Shown one piece after another: positions 33,761-43,102 of a stretch of DNA of 64,000 nucleotides. Under the pieces are notes generated by a model. The model ran no database searches, was not told where the DNA came from, and saw only the letters and a program-made list of their open reading frames with translations. Each line of letters starts with the position of its first letter. Position 1 is the first letter of the stretch. Both the position numbers and the translations under genes were made by a program. Origin of the DNA: Vicingus serpentipes (lineage in GTDB: Bacteria; Bacteroidota; Bacteroidia; Flavobacteriales_E; Vicingaceae). The DNA lies in assembly GCF_007993035.1 (NCBI RefSeq), contig NZ_VOOS01000002.1, forward strand, positions 62,001-126,000, given 5' to 3'.

Positions 33761-33768
33761 TATATTTG
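33761..33768 (+). promoter_or_regulatory. -7 promoter box (TATATTTG) for the second HU gene
   Basis: Exact TAnnTTTG 40 nt before the HU ATG, within an otherwise empty 112-nt gap. No exact TTG at -33. Confidence 0.6.
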
Positions 33769-34102: not shown

Positions 34103-34131
34103 AAAAGCTCTCCAAATGGGGAGCTTTTTTT
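34103..34131 (+). terminator. Rho-independent terminator after the second HU gene
   Basis: Stem AAAAGCTCTCC / GGGGAGCTTTT (one T-G pair) with loop AAAT, followed by a T-run. Confidence 0.88.
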
Positions 34132-34176: not shown

Positions 34177-35598
34177 ATGAATAAAGATGTTGGATATAAC
34201 TTTTTAAAATCAGCTATAACGCTATCCAATCCATACATGAGTCTAGATGATTTTATGAAGTGGTTGGAAGAGAAAAAGGCTTCAACACACCATAATATTC
34301 AAGAAATTCCTTTTGCAGAGTTAGAAAATTGGGAGTTTGAAAGAGAAACAGGAAATCTTGTTCATAGCTCTGGTAAATTTTTTTCTATTGAAGGAATTCA
34401 GATAAAAACAAATTGGGGAAATGTAAAGGAATGGACACAGCCTATAATAAATCAACCTGAAATTGGATTTTTGGGTATTATCACTAAAAAAATAGATGGT
34501 GTTCTATATTTTTTAATGCAAGCCAAAATTGAACCTGGTAACATTAATACTGTTCAAATTTCACCAACATTACAAGCGACAAAAAGTAATTACACACAAG
34601 TACATAAGGGGAATCCACCATTGTATTTGGAATATTTTATCGAAAAAAGAGAAGATGTTAATATTCTTCTTGATCAACTACAATCTGAACAAGGTGCTCG
34701 TTTTTTAAGAAAAAGAAACAGAAATATTATTATAGAAGTGACTAGTGATATTCAGGTTAATGAAGATTTTTGTTGGCTAACTTTAGGACAAATTAAAGAA
34801 TTATTGAAGTTAGATAATGTTATTAATATGGATACAAGAACAGTTATTTCAGGTATTTCATATGGAGATTTATCTACATTAAAACAATTTGCATTAACTA
34901 ATTCATCAACAGTTGAATATGACTTTTTGATTTCTGAATTGGATACCAAAAATGCAATGAATACAGTTGAAGATATTATTTCTTGGATAACCCGTCTTAA
35001 GGCTTTTGCTGAATTAGAAGTTGATAAAATTCCATTGAAGGATTTAAATGAATGGACAAAAGATGAATTCAGTATTCATCACCTTCAACAAAAATATTTT
35101 TCTGTAATTGGTGTACGAGCCGAAATTGGAAATAGAGAAGTTGCATCATGGACTCAACCTTTAGTTAAATCAGCTCAGGAAGGAATTATTGCCTTTATCA
35201 TTAAAAAAATTAATGGTGTGTATCATTTTTTAGTTCAGGCAAAAATGGAATCGGGTAATTTTGATATTATTGAGTTAGCTCCATCTGTTCAATGCTTAAC
35301 AGGTAATTACAGAAAAGGATTAAATGAGTATGAAGTTGAATTTATTGATTATGTGTTAGAACCAGAAAAAAACAAAGCCAAAGTTCTTTATTCATCATTT
35401 CAGTCTGAAGAAGGTGGTCGTTTTTTTGAAGAACAAAATAAGAATATGATTATTGAAGTTGGTGATGATTTTAGTGTTGATTTACCCGAAAAGTATAATT
35501 GGATGACTTTGAATCAAATTAAAACATTTATAAAGTTTAATAATTACTTAAATATTCAATCAAGAAGTTTGCTTTCTGTAGTAAGGTTTATAAATTAA
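34177..35598 (+). CDS. NDP-hexose 2,3-dehydratase family protein
   Basis: Homologue of EvaA/TylX3-type enzymes, which remove the 2-hydroxyl from NDP-4-keto-6-deoxyglucose, the committed step to 2,6-dideoxysugars. 473 aa, normal for the family, and built of two repeats: residues about 60-225 (FFSIEGIQIKTN, EWTQPIINQPEIGFLGIIT, LMQAKIEPGN) and about 305-470 (YFSVIGVRAEIGN, SWTQPLVKSAQEGIIAFII, LVQAKMESGN). Both repeats retain the EQGARF/EEGGRF-type segment. It heads a run of four genes with the Gfo/Idh reductase 7 nt downstream. Confidence 0.9.
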   Translation: MNKDVGYNFLKSAITLSNPYMSLDDFMKWLEEKKASTHHNIQEIPFAELENWEFERETGNLVHSSGKFFSIEGIQIKTNWGNVKEWTQPIINQPEIGFLGIITKKIDGVLYFLMQAKIEPGNINTVQISPTLQATKSNYTQVHKGNPPLYLEYFIEKREDVNILLDQLQSEQGARFLRKRNRNIIIEVTSDIQVNEDFCWLTLGQIKELLKLDNVINMDTRTVISGISYGDLSTLKQFALTNSSTVEYDFLISELDTKNAMNTVEDIISWITRLKAFAELEVDKIPLKDLNEWTKDEFSIHHLQQKYFSVIGVRAEIGNREVASWTQPLVKSAQEGIIAFIIKKINGVYHFLVQAKMESGNFDIIELAPSVQCLTGNYRKGLNEYEVEFIDYVLEPEKNKAKVLYSSFQSEEGGRFFEEQNKNMIIEVGDDFSVDLPEKYNWMTLNQIKTFIKFNNYLNIQSRSLLSVVRFIN

Positions 35599-35605
35599 AA
35601 TCAAA

Positions 35606-36559
35606 ATGAAATTAAGATTAGGAGTATTAGGTTGTGCGAATATTGCAAAAAGGAGTGTTATTCCTGCAATTTTATCAATTCCTGATTATGAATTAATTGC
35701 TGTAGCGAGTAGAACAAAAGAAAAAGCTAATGAATACGCAAGTCTTTTTAACTGTGAGTACATCATTGGTTATCAAGAATTATTAGATAGAAAAGACATA
35801 GATGTAATATATATGCCTTTACCAACAGGTCTTCATGAAGAATGGGTTTTAAAAGCTTTAGATGCAGGTAAACACATTTTAATTGAAAAGTCTTTAGCTA
35901 TGAATTATGAATCTTCCATAAAAATGGTTGAAAAAGCTAAGGAAAAAGATTTGTTGATTATGGAAAATTTTATGTTTTTATATCATGGTCAACATCAATT
36001 TGTAAAAAACTTAATAAATAAAAATAAAATAGGTGAAATTCGTTGTTTTAGAAGTTCATTTGGATTTCCTCCTTTAGAAGAAGATAATTTTAGATATAAT
36101 AATGCTTTAGGAGGTGGTTCTCTTCTAGATGCTGCTGCCTATACTGTTAGGGCTAGTCAGTTGTTTTTAGGAAATGATTTATGTGTAAAAGCAGCTAACT
36201 TAAATTTTGAAGGTAAAGAAGTTGATATTTATGGTGGAGCATATTTAAGTTCTAAATCTGGTTTTTTTGCTGAAGTTGCTTTTGGATTTGATAATTTTTA
36301 TCAGTGTAATTATGAAATATGGGGAAGTAAAGGTAAGATAATAGCTCAAAGAGCTTTTACTCCTGGTGAAAATTATAAGCCAACAATAACTTTAGAACAG
36401 CAAGGAGAAGTATTTAATTATGAGGTAGATGCTGAAAATCATTTTGTAAGTTTACTGAACGAATTTAAACGTTGTGTAAACGAAAATGACAAAGAAAATA
36501 AATATGAAGAAATACTTAATCAGAGTAGATTACTAAGTGAGCTAAAAGCCTTAAGTTAA
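35606..36559 (+). CDS. Gfo/Idh/MocA oxidoreductase (candidate 3-ketoreductase)
   Basis: NAD(P)-dependent sugar oxidoreductase, 317 aa. Rossmann start LRLGVLGCANIAKRSVIPAI, then DVIYMPLPTGLHEEWVLKAL and the signature GKHILIEKSLAMN, where the EKxxA Lys is the usual catalytic residue. In dideoxysugar pathways a protein of this family reduces the 3-keto product of the 2,3-dehydratase; its position 7 nt after that gene supports the role here. The product stereochemistry is unknown. Confidence 0.88.
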   Translation: MKLRLGVLGCANIAKRSVIPAILSIPDYELIAVASRTKEKANEYASLFNCEYIIGYQELLDRKDIDVIYMPLPTGLHEEWVLKALDAGKHILIEKSLAMNYESSIKMVEKAKEKDLLIMENFMFLYHGQHQFVKNLINKNKIGEIRCFRSSFGFPPLEEDNFRYNNALGGGSLLDAAAYTVRASQLFLGNDLCVKAANLNFEGKEVDIYGGAYLSSKSGFFAEVAFGFDNFYQCNYEIWGSKGKIIAQRAFTPGENYKPTITLEQQGEVFNYEVDAENHFVSLLNEFKRCVNENDKENKYEEILNQSRLLSELKALS

Positions 36560-36569
36560 GATAAATACT

Positions 36570-37268
36570 ATGAAGAGAGAGTTTGATAATTTTGATGAAT
36601 TTGCAAAAGATTACAGAGCTACACATGATAAATCTGTAGAAATAAGTGGTGCTGACAGTGATTATTTCAGTGAGTATAAAATATTAGAAGTTTTAAAATA
36701 TGAACAAGCTAATGATTCAATAAGAATTTTAGATTTTGGATGTGGTGACGGGAATAGTTCGAAGTATTTTAGAAAATATTTTAATAATTCACAGATAGTA
36801 GGAATAGATGTTTCTGAGCAAAGTATAAAAGAAGCTAATCAGAAAAAAATTGAAAATGCCATATTTCAATCCTTTAATGGTTCTACAATACCATTTGACG
36901 ATAACCAGTTCGATTTAATATTTACATCAATGGTTTTTCATCATATTGAACATAAATTGCATGAAAACATTTTAAATGAAATAAGAAGAGTTTTAAAACC
37001 AGGAGGTAGATTTTATAATTTTGAACATAATCCTAATAATCCTTTAACAAGAAAGGTTGTTAACGAGTGTCCTTTTGATGAAGATGCAGTTCTTTTAAAG
37101 CCTAGCTACCATAAGATGATAACCATTAAAAGTGGCTTAAATTTAAAAAATCTTAACTTCACTTTGTTCTTACCAAGACATAAGTTTTTTAAACCATTAT
37201 TAGGATTAGAAAAAATTTTAACTTGGTGTCCAATAGGAGCACAGTATTATATTAGGTCAATTAAATGA
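36570..37268 (+). CDS. Class I SAM-dependent methyltransferase (232 aa)
   Basis: Methyltransferase with motif I IRILDFGCGDGNSSKYF, acidic VVGIDVSEQSIKEA-like strand, and post-motif FDLIFTSMVFHHIEH with LNEIRRVLKPGGRFYNFEH, as in small-molecule or sugar methyltransferases. It lies 10 nt after the Gfo/Idh gene and overlaps the GT2 start by 4 nt (ATGA). O- or C-methylation of the dideoxysugar, or of a polyprenyl-linked product, is inferred from the cluster only. Confidence 0.85.
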   Translation: MKREFDNFDEFAKDYRATHDKSVEISGADSDYFSEYKILEVLKYEQANDSIRILDFGCGDGNSSKYFRKYFNNSQIVGIDVSEQSIKEANQKKIENAIFQSFNGSTIPFDDNQFDLIFTSMVFHHIEHKLHENILNEIRRVLKPGGRFYNFEHNPNNPLTRKVVNECPFDEDAVLLKPSYHKMITIKSGLNLKNLNFTLFLPRHKFFKPLLGLEKILTWCPIGAQYYIRSIK

Positions 37269-38194
37269 GTGAACAAGTTAAAATATCAGTTGTTAGCCCG
37301 GTATACAGAGCTGAAAATATTGTAGATAAATTGGTTGAACGCATTGTTAATGCAATATCCAAAATAACTGACAGTTATGAAATAATATTAGTTGAAGACT
37401 GTGGTCCTGATAATTCTTGGAATAAAATTTTAGAGAATTGCTCAAAAAACTCAAAAGTAAAAGGAATTAAACTTAGTCATAATTGCGGACAACAGCATGC
37501 TATACAAGCCGGTTTGGATGCTAGTAAAGGAGATTTTATAATTACGATGGATTGTGATTTGCAAGATCAACCAGAAGAAATTATAAAACTTTATACCAAA
37601 GCATTAGACGGATATGAAATAGTTGTTGCCAGTAGAAAAAATAGGCAGGATGATGCGTTTAAAAGAATGCTCTCCCGAATTTTTTATAGCACTTTGGGTT
37701 ATTTAACCGAAACTAAGCAAGATAGAACTGTCGCAAATTTTGCATGTTATCACCGTATTGCTGTTGATGCTATGGCTCAAGTTAAAGATCACAACAGATA
37801 TTATCCAATGTTACAACAACTAGTTGGTTTTAATTACACTAAAGTAGATATTGAACATGCGGAGCGTGAGGATGGAAAATCTTCATATTCTTTTGGAAAA
37901 AGATTGAGGTTGGCTATGGATACAATTTTAACATTTTCAGACAAACCTCTTAGACTAGCTGTTAAGTTTGGTGTGTTACTCTCATTTCTATCCATTATAG
38001 CTGCAATAGTTATGGTTGTTCTTTACATTTATAGCGATATAATAGTAGAAGGTTGGTCAAGTATTTTATTGTTGCTTACTTTTTTATCGGGTACAATTAT
38101 TTCGGTTTTAGGTATGGTTGGTTTATATGTTGGTAAAACATTTGAGAGCGTAAAGCAACGACCAACATACATAGTTCATAAAACAAAAAATTAA
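37265..38194 (+). CDS. Glycosyltransferase family 2, polyprenyl-phosphate type
   Basis: GT2 enzyme of the DPM1/GtrB class, which moves a sugar from a nucleotide onto undecaprenyl phosphate. SVVSPVYRAENIVDKLVERI, YEIILVEDCGPDNSW, LSHNCGQQHAIQAGLDASKG and the metal-binding ITMDCDLQDQPEEI (DxD-like). Two TM helices near the C-terminus (about 232-255 and 264-290) fit the GtrB layout. 309 aa. It starts inside the methyltransferase stop. A GT-C-like membrane protein downstream could use its product. Confidence 0.9.
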   Translation: MSEQVKISVVSPVYRAENIVDKLVERIVNAISKITDSYEIILVEDCGPDNSWNKILENCSKNSKVKGIKLSHNCGQQHAIQAGLDASKGDFIITMDCDLQDQPEEIIKLYTKALDGYEIVVASRKNRQDDAFKRMLSRIFYSTLGYLTETKQDRTVANFACYHRIAVDAMAQVKDHNRYYPMLQQLVGFNYTKVDIEHAEREDGKSSYSFGKRLRLAMDTILTFSDKPLRLAVKFGVLLSFLSIIAAIVMVVLYIYSDIIVEGWSSILLLLTFLSGTIISVLGMVGLYVGKTFESVKQRPTYIVHKTKN

Positions 38195-38271
38195 AATTTC
38201 AAGCTATTTTTTCAGGAAGATAATTGCACATTTTGTTTATTAAGATTATCTTAAACAAGATTTTATTTTTT

Positions 38272-40530
38272 ATGTGTAAAAAACACTTTTTAGTATTTCT
38301 AACGTTCATTGTATTTTTATTACAAAATATTGGTGCACAAACATTTGCTGATAAAAGTTTTTATTTAATAGATTCTCTAGATTTAAAAACACTTACAGAA
38401 AAAGATAAAGTTTTAATTGATACTTTATTACAAGAATATCATGAATCGAAAGAAGACACTTCAAAACTAAATTGTTTAAATGTTTTAATTTCTGAATGTG
38501 ATAATGAAATATGGGTTCAATACAATAATTTATTAATTACTAAATCAAAGCAATTAATAAATAAAGAATCAAAAAACATTTATAAAAAACATTTAGCATC
38601 AGGCTATAATAATTATGGATTTTATTATTACAATAACGATAATATAACTAAAGCGATAAGCAATTTTGAAAAAGCTATACAACTAAGTGTTGAAATAGAT
38701 GATTTAGCTGTAATTCCAACAGCATTAAATAATCTTGGATATATATTTAAACAGCAGGGAGATGTTTTAAAAGCTTTAGAGTATTACCATCGTTCGTTAA
38801 AGATTAATAGAGAATTAAATGAACAAGAGGAGGTTGCTTTATCATTAAATAATATAGGAAGCATATATTATTATCAAAAAGAATATGAAAAGGCTATAAA
38901 CTACTATCGTGATGCTTTAATGATAGAGAAAGAACATGGCTCTAAAAAAGGAGTTGCAAGATTATATAGCAATATAGGATCAATTTACAAAGAGCAAAAT
39001 AAAAATACCTTAGCAATTGATTACTTTAATCAAAGTATTAAAATTTATACAGAGATTGGTTATTCAAAAGGTATTGCTACATCTCTAAGTAAAAAAGCTT
39101 CTATAGAATTAAGTGAACTCAATGGTGAAAATGATGTAAAGACTTTAAATCAAATTTTAACAAAACATAAACAAGCTTATGAAATATTTAATGAGTTAGA
39201 TGATAATGAAGGCAGGGCTTATTCTATGTGTAATATAAGTTTAACATTAGAAGCATTAAAAGACTTTACTGGGGCAAAAAAATATGCTGAAAAAAGTTTC
39301 AGAATTGCAAAAGAAATAGGCTATCCTGAATCTATAAAAAGTGCTGCCAATATTCTAAAAAATATAGCTGTAATTAAAAAAGATTTTGAAGAAGCATATT
39401 TAATGCAAGAATTGTTTTATCAAATGCAAGATAGTATAAGTAGTGAGTCTGTTAAAGAAGTTACTATACAGAAACAATATCAATATGAATATCAAAAGAA
39501 ATTTATAAAAGATAGTCTAGCCACAGCAGAAGCTGAAAAAATTAAAGATTTAAAGTATAATCAAGAAATAAAACAACAACAAACCTATGTTTTGGTAGGT
39601 TTTATAGGATTATTACTTATGGGAATTGTTGCATTAGTTATTTATAGGGGATACCGCTTAAAAAAGAAAAGTAACTATCAGTTAGAAGAAAAAAATAAAT
39701 TAATTGAAGAGAAAAATAAAGAAATTACAGATTCTATTACTTATGCTAAAAGGATTCAAGAAGCTATTTTACCTGCAAATAGCTTATTGAATAAACATTT
39801 AATAGATGGTTTTGTTTTGTATAAGCCAAAAGATATTGTTGCTGGAGATTTTTATTGGATGCACCCATTAGAAAATGACACTGTACTTATAGCGGTTGCA
39901 GATTGTACTGGCCATGGAGTTCCGGGTGCAATGGTAAGTGTTGTTTGCCATCATGCCTTAAATAGATCTGTAAGAGAATATAATTTAACAGAACCTGGAT
40001 TAATATTAGATAAAACACGTGAATTTGTAATTGATACTTTTGCTCAAAACAATGAGTTTAATGTTAGAGATGGAATGGATATTGCAATTTGTGCAATTAA
40101 TTATAAAAATCAAACAGTTCAATTCTCAGGGGCAAATAACCCCTTGTATATATTGAGTACAAATAATAATACTATTTCTAGCTTGCCTATTAGTTGCAAA
40201 ATAGAAGAAGGATACAATACCGTTTTATATGAAATTAAAGGAGATAAACAACCAATAGGGAGTTATACAAATGAATTATCTCCATTCAAAACTCACACAA
40301 TATCTATCCATAAAAATGATATGATTTATTTATTTACAGATGGATACGCTGATCAGTTTGGTGGTGAAAAAGGAAAAAAGTTAAAGTATAAAACATTCAA
40401 AAAATTATTAATGCTAAACTGTACGCAAAAAATGGACGATCAAAAAAACTTATTAAATAAATTTTTTAATGAGTGGAAAGGAGATATGGAGCAAGTAGAT
40501 GATGTGTGTGTGTTAGGTATTAAGATTTAA
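38272..40530 (+). CDS. TPR - transmembrane - SpoIIE-type phosphatase (752 aa)
   Basis: Membrane-anchored PP2C-like Ser/Thr phosphatase with a periplasmic TPR sensor. Signal peptide from the ATG at 38272 (MCKKHFLVFLTFIVFLLQN). TPR units between about residues 85 and 370 (NNLGYIFKQQGDVLKALEYY, NNIGSIYYYQKEYEKAINYY, SNIGSIYKEQNKNTLAIDYF). One TM at about 438-458, then a coiled coil (EEKNKLIEEKNKEI), then SpoIIE: KPKDIVAGDFYWM, VADCTGHGVPGAMVS, GMDIAI, GANNPLY, LFTDGYADQFGG and a final DDVCVLGIKI with the metal Asp residues. A TTG at 38224 is upstream, but the ATG gives the better signal peptide. It may dephosphorylate the STAS protein at 32391. Confidence 0.9.
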   Translation: MCKKHFLVFLTFIVFLLQNIGAQTFADKSFYLIDSLDLKTLTEKDKVLIDTLLQEYHESKEDTSKLNCLNVLISECDNEIWVQYNNLLITKSKQLINKESKNIYKKHLASGYNNYGFYYYNNDNITKAISNFEKAIQLSVEIDDLAVIPTALNNLGYIFKQQGDVLKALEYYHRSLKINRELNEQEEVALSLNNIGSIYYYQKEYEKAINYYRDALMIEKEHGSKKGVARLYSNIGSIYKEQNKNTLAIDYFNQSIKIYTEIGYSKGIATSLSKKASIELSELNGENDVKTLNQILTKHKQAYEIFNELDDNEGRAYSMCNISLTLEALKDFTGAKKYAEKSFRIAKEIGYPESIKSAANILKNIAVIKKDFEEAYLMQELFYQMQDSISSESVKEVTIQKQYQYEYQKKFIKDSLATAEAEKIKDLKYNQEIKQQQTYVLVGFIGLLLMGIVALVIYRGYRLKKKSNYQLEEKNKLIEEKNKEITDSITYAKRIQEAILPANSLLNKHLIDGFVLYKPKDIVAGDFYWMHPLENDTVLIAVADCTGHGVPGAMVSVVCHHALNRSVREYNLTEPGLILDKTREFVIDTFAQNNEFNVRDGMDIAICAINYKNQTVQFSGANNPLYILSTNNNTISSLPISCKIEEGYNTVLYEIKGDKQPIGSYTNELSPFKTHTISIHKNDMIYLFTDGYADQFGGEKGKKLKYKTFKKLLMLNCTQKMDDQKNLLNKFFNEWKGDMEQVDDVCVLGIKI

Positions 40531-40569
40531 TTATTAAATTATTAAATTGGTTTTTTTTAGATAAGATAT

Positions 40570-40577
40570 TACTTTTA
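40570..40577 (+). promoter_or_regulatory. -7 box (TACTTTTA) 4 nt before the epimerase start: leaderless mRNA
   Basis: One mismatch to TAnnTTTG; CCTT separates it from the ATG at 40582. Confidence 0.42.
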
Positions 40578-40581
40578 CCTT

Positions 40582-41478
40582 ATGCAAAAATCAATTGTTT
40601 TTGGTGCAAACGGTTATTTAGGTCGGCATTTAGTTCATTATTTACAAAAAGATGGACATAATGTTTTAGCTTCTGGAGTTAGAGATAAATCTATCGATTC
40701 AATAGTTAATTACTTTAAAGCTGACATTTCATATGAAGAAGAAGTTGAACAAATAGATTTTAATGTTGATTACATATTTGTTTTTGCAGGATTAACAGGA
40801 ACTAATGTCGCTTTTGATAATCCAAATAAATTTATTGATGTTAACGAGAAAGGCTTATTAAATATCCTTAATCATCATCGCCAAACAAATTCTAAAGCTA
40901 GAATTATTTACCCTTCAACTCGTTTGGTTTATAAAGGAGTGAAAAATAAATTTTTAAAAGAAGAAGATGAGAAAGAAGCTTTAACAATATACGCACAGAA
41001 TAAGTTGTCTTGTGAAAGTTATTTAAAAATGTATGCTACTAATTTTGACATAGATTACTCCATTTTTCGTGTTTGTGTTCCGTATGGCAATGTTTTTAGT
41101 GATGACTATTCTTACGGAACAATAGGATTCTTTCTAAATAAAGCAAAAAACAATCAAAATATTACACTTTTTGGTAAAGGTGAGGTAAAACGAACATTTA
41201 CTCATGTGGAAGACATTTGTTTATCAATAATTGAAACATTAAAAATACAATCAGATAAAAATTCAACATTTAACATAGGTAGCAAGGATAATTTTAGTCT
41301 CTATGAAGTTGCAGCTTTTTTTGCAAAAAAATACAATATTGAAATTGAATTAATTGATTGGCCTAAAATGGCTTTAAAAATAGAATCAGGCGATACCATA
41401 TTTGATGATCAAAAATTACTGAGTTTAACAGCATATCAGTACAAAAATGATTTGAAAACTTGGTTAGAAAAAAATTAA
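40582..41478 (+). CDS. NAD-dependent epimerase/dehydratase (extended SDR)
   Basis: Extended short-chain dehydrogenase acting on nucleotide sugars, 298 aa. Nucleotide-binding KSIVFGANGYLGRHLVHYL (GxxGxxG), VFAGLTG, YPSTRLVYKG (Ser/Thr of the triad) and the catalytic AQNKLSCESYL stretch, where the usual YxxxK reads YAQNK. Later RTFTHVEDICLSIIETLK is the typical C-terminal motif. Activity (epimerase, reductase or dehydratase) is not assignable. It is followed 4 nt later by the GT-C-like membrane protein, and lies in the sugar region downstream of the GT2 gene. Confidence 0.87.
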   Translation: MQKSIVFGANGYLGRHLVHYLQKDGHNVLASGVRDKSIDSIVNYFKADISYEEEVEQIDFNVDYIFVFAGLTGTNVAFDNPNKFIDVNEKGLLNILNHHRQTNSKARIIYPSTRLVYKGVKNKFLKEEDEKEALTIYAQNKLSCESYLKMYATNFDIDYSIFRVCVPYGNVFSDDYSYGTIGFFLNKAKNNQNITLFGKGEVKRTFTHVEDICLSIIETLKIQSDKNSTFNIGSKDNFSLYEVAAFFAKKYNIEIELIDWPKMALKIESGDTIFDDQKLLSLTAYQYKNDLKTWLEKN

Positions 41479-41482
41479 ATTG

Positions 41483-43102
41483 ATGGCAACAAAAGAAAAT
41501 CAAAAAACAAATATCAATATTCAAATAGATAATTACTTGTCAAATACGACTTTGTTAATATTAACATTTGTATTATCACTTGTCTACTTTGGATTTTCTC
41601 GTTTTTCTGATGGGTTTTATATGCATGATGAAATTGCAAACTTTAATGGAATGCAAAACTTTTGGGGAAATCCAATGTCAATCCTAGGGGCAAATTCAAA
41701 AACAGGATATAAATTATTTTTTGTTTTACCAGCTTTAGGAGGTTATTCTGTACTTCAACTTTTTAATAGTTTTTTAGCTGGCTTCACTGTTTTTTTCTCC
41801 TATAAAATTTTACAACAGCTTAAAAGTAAATATTCTTTAATAATCTTTTTCCTACTAGGGATTCAGCCTTTATGGTTTATGCTTTCTTTTAGGAGCTATG
41901 CAGAAATATTAGTTGCTTTTTTATTAGTATTAGCTACTTTTCAACATTTTAATAAAAAATATGTATTTGCAGCTCTTATTCTTTCATATGTCGCATTTAC
42001 CCGACAAGAGTTACATGTATTATCAGGATTATATTTTATATACTTGGTAGCTAAAAAGCAATGGTTACCAGCAGTTTTAACAGGAACTTTTACAGTAATT
42101 AATTTTATAATAGGATTTGTACAAACTGGAGATTTTCTTCATGTTGTTAATGAAATTAAGACTTATTCGGAGCAATTAAAAGATGCATATCCTAGGCAAG
42201 GTTTTGATCATTATTTCTTGATGTCAAGTGTTATTTTTGGTTCATTAAATGTTGTTTTATTTTTTAATTATTTGGGTAGTTTAATTTTACAAAAAATTAA
42301 ACCAGTATGGATATTGTTAATTCCCGTTTTAGTTGTCTTTCTTTTAAATTGTGCTTTTAATGCTCAGTTTATGGAGTTTAGTATTGGCAATGGAGGTAAT
42401 TTAAGGTATCTTTTAACAATATCACCTTTTCTTGCAATTATTGGAGTTCTTTCTTTTGATAATTTAGCTTTATTAAAACCTAGATGGAAAATTGGTTTGT
42501 TTCTAATTCCATTAATTATACTAATTGCAGTTTATCAAACATATGATCATAATTTTATTAAACTAAATGAAGAAATTAGAAATTGGTCATCGCTAATCTT
42601 TGCATTATTAACTTTTGGTCTTATCTTAATACCTATTCCAATTAAACGATTGGTATTAATTATTTCTCTTTTAGCAATAGCAGTTGGCTTTTCTATAATA
42701 GATACTAGAAAAATTGAACCCGAAGAAAAAACTGTAAAAAAAGCAGCCAAATGGTTTAATGACCAAGTTAAAATATCAAAAAATCCTCAGCCTGGACAAC
42801 AAGTTTTAATTACTGAAAATTCAAGGTTAGCAGTTTCTCATACTTTATTTTATTTTTATGCAGGTAAGAATGAGGCCGAATTTAAAAATAGACCAGTTTC
42901 TCTTGTTAAGGAGGCTACAGACACTTTAAAAGTTGGAGATTTAGTTGTTTGGGATTCACATTATGGAAATCGTCCAAAATTAAGACCAGGAAGCCAGCCA
43001 TATGAATTTTATGAAAATGATCCTAAATTTCAAAAAATTCAGTATTATCAATCTAGTGATAGAAGGTTTACAATTGTATTCTTTTTAAAAGTTAAAGATT
43101 AA
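41483..43102 (+). CDS. Polytopic membrane protein, GT-C glycosyltransferase-like (539 aa)
   Basis: About eleven hydrophobic segments between residues 20 and 410, then a soluble C-terminal domain of about 120 residues. The first extracytoplasmic loop carries MHDEIANFNGMQNFWGNP; an acidic pair in this loop is the catalytic mark of GT-C (PMT/ArnT-like) enzymes, which use polyprenyl-phosphate sugars. Its place after the GT2 and epimerase genes fits that role, but I cannot assign a family. Start: ATG at 41483 (MATKENQ), 4 nt after the epimerase stop. Confidence 0.72.
   Translation: MATKENQKTNINIQIDNYLSNTTLLILTFVLSLVYFGFSRFSDGFYMHDEIANFNGMQNFWGNPMSILGANSKTGYKLFFVLPALGGYSVLQLFNSFLAGFTVFFSYKILQQLKSKYSLIIFFLLGIQPLWFMLSFRSYAEILVAFLLVLATFQHFNKKYVFAALILSYVAFTRQELHVLSGLYFIYLVAKKQWLPAVLTGTFTVINFIIGFVQTGDFLHVVNEIKTYSEQLKDAYPRQGFDHYFLMSSVIFGSLNVVLFFNYLGSLILQKIKPVWILLIPVLVVFLLNCAFNAQFMEFSIGNGGNLRYLLTISPFLAIIGVLSFDNLALLKPRWKIGLFLIPLIILIAVYQTYDHNFIKLNEEIRNWSSLIFALLTFGLILIPIPIKRLVLIISLLAIAVGFSIIDTRKIEPEEKTVKKAAKWFNDQVKISKNPQPGQQVLITENSRLAVSHTLFYFYAGKNEAEFKNRPVSLVKEATDTLKVGDLVVWDSHYGNRPKLRPGSQPYEFYENDPKFQKIQYYQSSDRRFTIVFFLKVKD

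Follow-up and report, generated by a model that had tools for sequence, protein, structure and literature searches.

The 64,000-nucleotide window of the Vicingus serpentipes genome analysed here contains, at positions 34177-43102, seven near-touching open reading frames (ORFs) on the + strand, separated by successive gaps of 7, 10, -4, 29, 51 and 1 bp. They are named below by their first position and encode, in this order, a putative 2,3-dehydratase, a sugar 3-ketoreductase, a methyltransferase, a family 2 glycosyltransferase (GT2), a phosphatase, a short-chain dehydrogenase/reductase (SDR) and a multi-membrane protein; the same seven genes had been described at this candidate 2,6-dideoxysugar island, or cassette, by an earlier reading of the DNA letters (the sequence-only reading), and this observation is confirmed. 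Chance ORFs are ruled out, homologues of all seven genes being present in the loci of relatives and six of the seven having a Pfam match; carriage as phage cargo was also rejected, the dehydratase having no match in the phage collection. The window's family is represented by 46 genomes, of which 22 have PF03559, the Pfam family of the first gene product, and the same 22 are recovered among 100 relatives; the comparisons reported below refer to these 22 dehydratase-positive and 24 dehydratase-negative genomes.

The first gene (34177..35598, + strand) encodes a protein of 473 aa with the features of an NDP-hexose 2,3-dehydratase of the EvaA/TylX3 family. It is composed of two tandem PF03559 (Nudix-like) modules (508 bits, E 1.2e-153), and EvaA is its sole relative in the Protein Data Bank (PDB) at E <= 0.001 (E 7e-112). 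Mutation of either E139 or E190 of EvaA is reported to abolish activity (PMC8987622); these two residues of pocket A align with E119 and E171 of the 34177 protein. In alignment A4, which comprises 19 family members (the window and 18 relatives, 3 of the 22 positive genomes lying outside it) and one distant protein, Glu is found at E119 in all 20 rows and at E171 in 19, the exception being the distant homologue L080, which has Asp; the window protein and all 18 of its aligned relatives from the family retain both catalytic Glu. Judged from its sequence, 34177 is a true NDP-hexose 2,3-dehydratase. The second module (residues 265-469) has a Glu, E358, in 20 of 20 rows at the position where EvaA has Asp353 in the phmmer alignment, and the Glu pair of its QSEEGGRF motif is almost always conserved. 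The corresponding second pocket of EvaA is reported to be an inactive remnant (PMC8987622), whereas both pockets of the 34177 dehydratase might be active.

The second gene (35606..36559, + strand) encodes a Gfo/Idh/MocA sugar 3-ketoreductase of 317 aa. The best PDB match of the protein is 'Sugar 3-ketoreductase' 3rbv, together with its sister entries (E 7e-71), while the next differently named molecule is found at E 9e-31; 3rbv is, we presume, KijD10. K95 and Y179 align with a Lys and a Tyr of 3rbv, are invariant in 15 of 15 aligned sequences and are taken here to be the catalytic residues. Thus far the sequence-only reading, which had assigned the two genes to the committed steps of 2,6-dideoxysugar formation, stands on both counts.

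The third gene (36570..37268, + strand) codes for a class I S-adenosylmethionine-dependent methyltransferase of 232 aa, assigned by Pfam and by fold. The fold search returned a generic class I fold, with Z scores from 21.4 to 18.7 over the best 50 matches, and no named sugar methyltransferase among the 50 listed. The ortholog is present in 20 of the 22 positive genomes (in two of them in pieces) and in 0 of the 24 negative ones, where the next best score is 73 bits. From its position, the enzyme probably O-methylates the dideoxysugar; according to a review, it is not known if the activated sugars already carry methyl and other modifying groups (PMC12871550). The methylated product anticipated by the sequence-only reading keeps the linkage of the methyltransferase to the cassette in its favour, but is weaker than claimed, as genome G024 has the cassette and no methyltransferase.

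The fourth gene (37265..38194, + strand) encodes a GT2 of the polyprenyl-phosphate type (Sll0501/ArnC/PgfS), with DCD and LQD motifs and two C-terminal hydrophobic stretches. Its E values are 5.5e-52 to Sll0501 and 8e-49 to ArnC, and the PgfS and ArnC models are matched below their cut-offs; we also take it to be GtrB-like. These family relationships support the identification of 37265 as a putative membrane-bound GT-A enzyme loading polyprenyl phosphate, in agreement with the earlier proposal.

An extended SDR, proposed to be the 4-ketoreductase of the dideoxysugar, is encoded at 40582..41478 (+ strand), as indicated by Pfam, a PDB match and co-occurrence. It carries GxxGxxG, Ser112 and YxxxK, and the first and the last of these motifs are intact in 12 of 12 aligned sequences; as a local RmlB it was rejected, with 71.5 bits to the RmlB model against a cut-off of 365. 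Its ortholog, at 416-529 bits, occurs in 18 of the 22 positive genomes and in none of the 24 negative ones (best score there, 133 bits). The four positives without it are fragmented assemblies: in G034 and G041 the contig ends shortly past yfiO, in G044 it ends just past the membrane protein, where the SDR is expected, and in G035 yfiO was not found either. The gene lies near the cassette in 10 of the 19 loci that the window and 18 relatives provide, and on another contig than the dehydratase in six genomes, being found beside the membrane protein and yfiO in G002, G025 and G032, and with no other cassette genes nearby in G006, G019 and G029. What supports the place of the SDR in the dideoxysugar pathway is this co-occurrence.

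The last gene of the island (41480..43102, + strand) starts with TTG; position 41483, used previously as its start, is an ATG one codon later. Its product is a multi-membrane protein with many hydrophobic stretches, invariant HDE residues (49-51) and a C-terminal soluble part, proposed to be a C-type glycosyltransferase (GT-C). Close orthologs, with scores of at least 176 bits, are found in 14 of the 22 positive genomes, whereas none of the 24 negative genomes reaches this level (best score there, 86 bits), and G041 adds a 22-residue tail of the protein at a contig end. The best match of the fold search is ArnT (5f15, E 0.029), which is non-significant and was obtained on a poor model, and no Pfam family was assigned to the two wider paralogs that were scanned. 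The description as a membrane protein by the sequence-only reading is retained, but the GT-C-like character of the protein is not established, and the assignment as a GT-C transferase is a weak one.

Gene order was compared in 18 loci (L055-L072) of 18 relatives. In all of them the Gfo/Idh gene is the immediate neighbour of the dehydratase gene and has the same direction; in the 17 loci on longer contigs the GT2 is always part of the run, and the methyltransferase is in 16 (in two pieces in G025; missing in G024), while the flanks of the cassette vary from one relative to another. Conservation of the dehydratase-ketoreductase-methyltransferase-GT2 run is a feature of one bacterial family. Fisher's test of presence against the dehydratase gives 3e-9 for the SDR, 4e-11 for the methyltransferase and 1e-6 for the membrane protein, from genome counts that are not independent. 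The link among these genes suggested by the sequence-only reading is borne out, with 34177 and 35606 homologues always neighbours in these loci and with the methyltransferase, SDR and membrane protein represented by close orthologs in dehydratase-carrying genomes only.

In a tree of the yfiO-like protein encoded 3' of the island, which covers 31 of the 46 family genomes and whose midpoint root serves for drawing only, the 20 dehydratase-positive rows fall within one supported group of 22. The dehydratase label needs two changes on this tree, in the simplest case a gain at the base of the group and a loss before G001 and G003 diverged; with about one gain and one loss, the run is therefore of old date and has been passed on mostly by vertical descent. 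In G001 and G003, which belong to the same genus, the dehydratase is missing together with the methyltransferase, the SDR and the membrane protein, none of which has a close ortholog there. The informative contrast is with the adjoining genome on the tree, G002, which has the cassette genes as two modules on different contigs; should the ancestor have had the G002 arrangement, genes that were not linked would have been lost together. The seven named relatives from the genome scan are all metagenome-assembled, one 'Vicingaceae bacterium' and six Flavobacteriales.

Across the phylum, PF03559 was found in 3 of 395 sampled genomes, the window's own included, and the neighbours in the two other carriers (G205 and G473) differ from those of the window. 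G205 has a very divergent 2,3-dehydratase homologue (L080, G205:C8; 26% identity), in another family of the class and in a different setting. In G473 a dehydratase-Gfo/Idh pair (L079, G473:C7) is followed by an unassigned ORF of 412 residues on a contig of 4.75 kb that has neither this methyltransferase nor this GT2; the same genome has another dehydratase, truncated where a second contig ends.

The island has neither rmlA nor rmlB, and the sequence-only reading had placed the genes for the precursor elsewhere. Indeed, the window's genome (2.92 Mb, 34 contigs, 99.9% complete) contains one RmlB over the cut-off, at C1:289665, within a polysaccharide gene cluster (473 bits, cut-off 365), so that the 4,6-dehydratase on which the proposal hinged is present. 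RmlA, sought in the window's own genome, is found over its cut-off at C6:92267 (468 bits, cut-off 361); a second RmlB candidate beside it (G000:C6) was discarded, with 163 bits, below the cut-off. Among the family genomes, RmlB is over the cut-off in 42 of 46, corresponding to 19 of the 22 with the dehydratase and 23 of the 24 without.

From its gene content, the island (33.7-43.1 kb) quite probably makes a 2,6-dideoxyhexose, loads it on polyprenyl phosphate and delivers it to a cell-envelope glycan; overall, the earlier interpretation is supported. RmlA and RmlB, encoded elsewhere in the genome, would produce dTDP-4-keto-6-deoxyglucose; 34177 would then remove the C2 hydroxyl, generating a 3,4-diketo-2,6-dideoxy sugar, which would be reduced on C3 by 35606. 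Specific homology and conserved catalytic residues support these predicted C2 and C3 steps. The 40582 SDR is the putative enzyme for C4 reduction, and the 36570 methyltransferase probably O-methylates the sugar; the methylation target and the stereochemistry of the sugar are presumed. At the inner membrane, the 37265 GT2 would transfer the sugar from the nucleotide to polyprenyl phosphate, and an unlinked flippase would turn the lipid-linked sugar over; the lone GtrA of the genome is a candidate for this role, because one GtrA-type flippase is described as able to serve several systems (PMC8035078). The final transfer might be performed by the 41480 protein, where present, or by another GT-C or other enzyme, and the acceptor could be a surface polysaccharide or capsule, the lipopolysaccharide or a Bacteroidota protein O-glycan. 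A broader proposal, which we advance tentatively and with somewhat more doubt than confidence, is that the locus specifies a three-component envelope glycosylation whose donor is a polyprenyl-phosphate-linked, possibly methylated, 2,6-dideoxyhexose, that the ancestor of a Flavobacteriales clade took over an antibiotic-type pathway, in a single event, for the decoration of its surface and that the 41480 protein founds a new extracytoplasmic glycosyltransferase family.

Several observations weigh against this interpretation. Both the enzyme activities and the glycan are predictions from gene content. RmlB is equally common in genomes without the cassette and therefore represents a shared pool rather than a cassette-specific function; furthermore, an RmlB over the cut-off was not found in the cassette genomes G029 and G034, and G043 has only two pieces, which either speaks mildly against the model or reflects incomplete assemblies. 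Since the tree needs about two events, the co-occurrence counts overstate independence. The 36570 methyltransferase is about equally similar to many unrelated methyltransferases, and weaker SDR paralogs are present in 20 of the 24 dehydratase-negative genomes. The 41480 membrane protein has no Pfam or PDB sequence match and its predicted model is poor (mean pLDDT, the predicted local distance difference test score, 52.7); it was not found in 8 of the 22 cassette genomes, its place being readable and empty in five of them (G006, G019, G029, G024 and G039), and weaker homologues are found in 13 of the 24 negative genomes. Finally, the Pfam scan of the seven proteins of the island recognised no flippase, whether of the GtrA, the Wzx or the MATE type, Wzx and MATE proteins elsewhere in the genome not having been sought, and the sole GtrA found in the genome lies 99 kb beyond the island.

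The nearest solved relatives of both committed enzymes come from antibiotic pathways, and 83 of the 85 plasmid records with a dehydratase relative belong to actinomycetes by genus name, mostly Streptomyces. The dideoxysugar could thus be imagined as a component of a secreted small molecule, an antibiotic-like glycoside as in actinomycetes; however, the glycosyltransferase of the island is of the membrane polyprenyl-phosphate type, no aglycone synthase is seen by Pfam among the seven island genes and the next gene, and relatives have the same four-gene run between flanks that vary, which leaves this explanation a slim chance. Another possibility is that the GT2 and the membrane protein serve an unrelated sugar and share only the operon, ordinary glycosyltransferases putting the dideoxysugar into an O-antigen repeat. 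The location of RmlB in a polysaccharide cluster and the several cassette genomes without the membrane protein would fit such a division, but wherever the run could be read (the window and 17 relatives, 18 of 18) it contains the GT2, even in the genome without the methyltransferase, and in no dehydratase-negative genome (0/24) was a close ortholog of the membrane protein found; we regard this possibility as unlikely.

The order of the steps could also be different, with the SDR acting after lipid loading: the GT2 would load a 4-keto-2,6-dideoxy sugar, to be completed on the lipid as DprE1/DprE2 do with decaprenyl-phospho-ribose. A 4-ketoreductase working at the nucleotide-sugar level is, as general knowledge, the simpler and usual arrangement; moreover, the SDR is near the cassette in 10 of 19 loci, and in G006, G019 and G029 it has no membrane protein nearby, all of which makes completion on the lipid improbable. 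In its favour, G002, G025 and G032 pair the SDR with the membrane protein by yfiO, apart from the nucleotide-sugar genes; in addition, the SDR epimerase of a three-component system is described as setting the added sugar, and DprE1/DprE2 as acting on a lipid-linked sugar (PMC11127046).

The reading preferred here, dideoxysugar synthesis coupled to a lipid carrier, can be compared with known systems. 2,6-Dideoxysugars are known mainly from antibiotics. The island shares with the actinomycete antibiotic pathways the EvaA-type 2,3-dehydratase and the Gfo/Idh 3-ketoreductase, with conserved catalytic residues. On a Streptomyces plasmid, the dehydratase-Gfo/Idh pair is found in the same order, with a 4 bp overlap, at less than 5 kb from an annotated glucose-1-phosphate thymidylyltransferase and rfbB, and with a glycosyltransferase on the other side; the 2 of 85 plasmid records outside actinomycetes are from Serratia and Hoeflea. 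Differently from these pathways, the island lacks rmlA/rmlB and an aglycone gene, the pair is followed by a polyprenyl-phosphate GT2 and the 34177 dehydratase has about 44% identity with its nearest plasmid relatives.

Three-component, or multi-component, transmembrane glycosylation systems, of which GtrABC is presumably one, provide a second term of comparison. The island has the same plan as CsbB-GtcA-YfhO and the pentofuranose GT136 systems in its predicted membrane-bound GT-A loading polyprenyl phosphate and its multi-membrane candidate transferase; the examples reported add glucose, galactose, GlcNAc or pentofuranoses (PMC8035078, PMC11127046). One pentofuranose system is also accompanied by an SDR, and in one three-component system an SDR epimerase is reported to decide which sugar is added (PMC11127046). 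Conversely, no flippase was recognised in the island, the fold of its candidate transferase is unconfirmed and its sugar would come from dedicated 2,6-dideoxysugar enzymes.

Tannerella, a member of the same phylum, belongs to another order than the window's organism. The S-layer O-glycan of Tannerella forsythia resembles the product proposed here in carrying a 2,6-dideoxyhexose, digitoxose, on a surface glycan, but the passages dealing with it name no gene for digitoxose synthesis (PMC4030854, PMC6120980, PMC8550257). A 2,3-dehydratase for lipopolysaccharide was not found in the open-access literature, a weak negative as '2,3' is not searchable, and in an O-antigen example the relevant passage has only a GDP-sugar 3-dehydratase (PMC6124807). 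Nor was a dideoxysugar pair joined to a polyprenyl-phosphate glycosyltransferase found described in the available parts of that literature. What is new is the union of known dideoxysugar enzymes with a lipid-carrier GT2, a sound and somewhat unusual combination which is not a new kind of system, and its use is probably decoration of the organism's own cell surface rather than a drug. If a stable, clade-specific cassette links the making of 2,6-dideoxysugars with a lipid carrier, this would account for the way in which some Bacteroidota put such sugars on surface glycans; the cassette offers genes to look for behind the digitoxose of Tannerella, as well as candidate enzymes for making polyprenyl-linked deoxysugars.

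Downstream of the island, after 28 bp, the + strand run continues with the yfiO-like gene (PF13525), followed by genes which we take to be rpoZ-like and then coaBC-like. In the cassette-free genome G008, yfiO comes directly after the STAS and RNase Z genes, at a distance of 69 bp; therefore, the island occupies a site that is empty in G008. The G+C content of the island is 28.0%, against 30.4% in the remaining window, a weak compositional sign of recent transfer. A terminator-like hairpin of 11 pairs followed by a T-rich tail, a consensus match only, lies at 34103..34128 (+ strand), 48 bp 5' of the dehydratase, and probably serves either as the end of the RNase Z transcript or as an attenuator of the cassette; five such sites were found, compared with a mean of 2.5 in shuffles. 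The promoter scan gave no excess (60 sites vs 59.1 in shuffles), and TAnnTTTG, presumably a Bacteroidetes-type promoter motif, occurs 43 times on the window's + strand, one of these occurrences being at 33761. No RNA family reached its gathering score between 31 and 46 kb.

The fifth gene of the island (38224..40530, + strand) encodes a TPR plus SpoIIE-type phosphatase, assigned by Pfam, which is probably regulatory and not clearly part of the pathway. Homologues lie directly up- or downstream of the cassette in 14 of the 18 relatives' loci, with up to three consecutive genes in genus g4, and they also occur away from it (e.g. L159); perhaps these phosphatases regulate the cassette.

The site 5' of yfiO looks like a variable glycan locus. 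In G015 (L048 / L057), the interval between the cassette and yfiO contains in addition a second GT2, a GNAT acetyltransferase, a DegT aminotransferase and a membrane protein with a C-terminal TPR extension. In four relatives (L051, L059, L064 and L150), the SDR is separated from the membrane protein or from yfiO by a second, divergent methyltransferase gene that is read from the opposite strand. Genus g13 has, in several of its genomes, a gene of 469-475 codons immediately or slightly upstream of the cassette, and the two that were scanned (in G015 and G043) encode phosphoglucomutase/phosphomannomutases.

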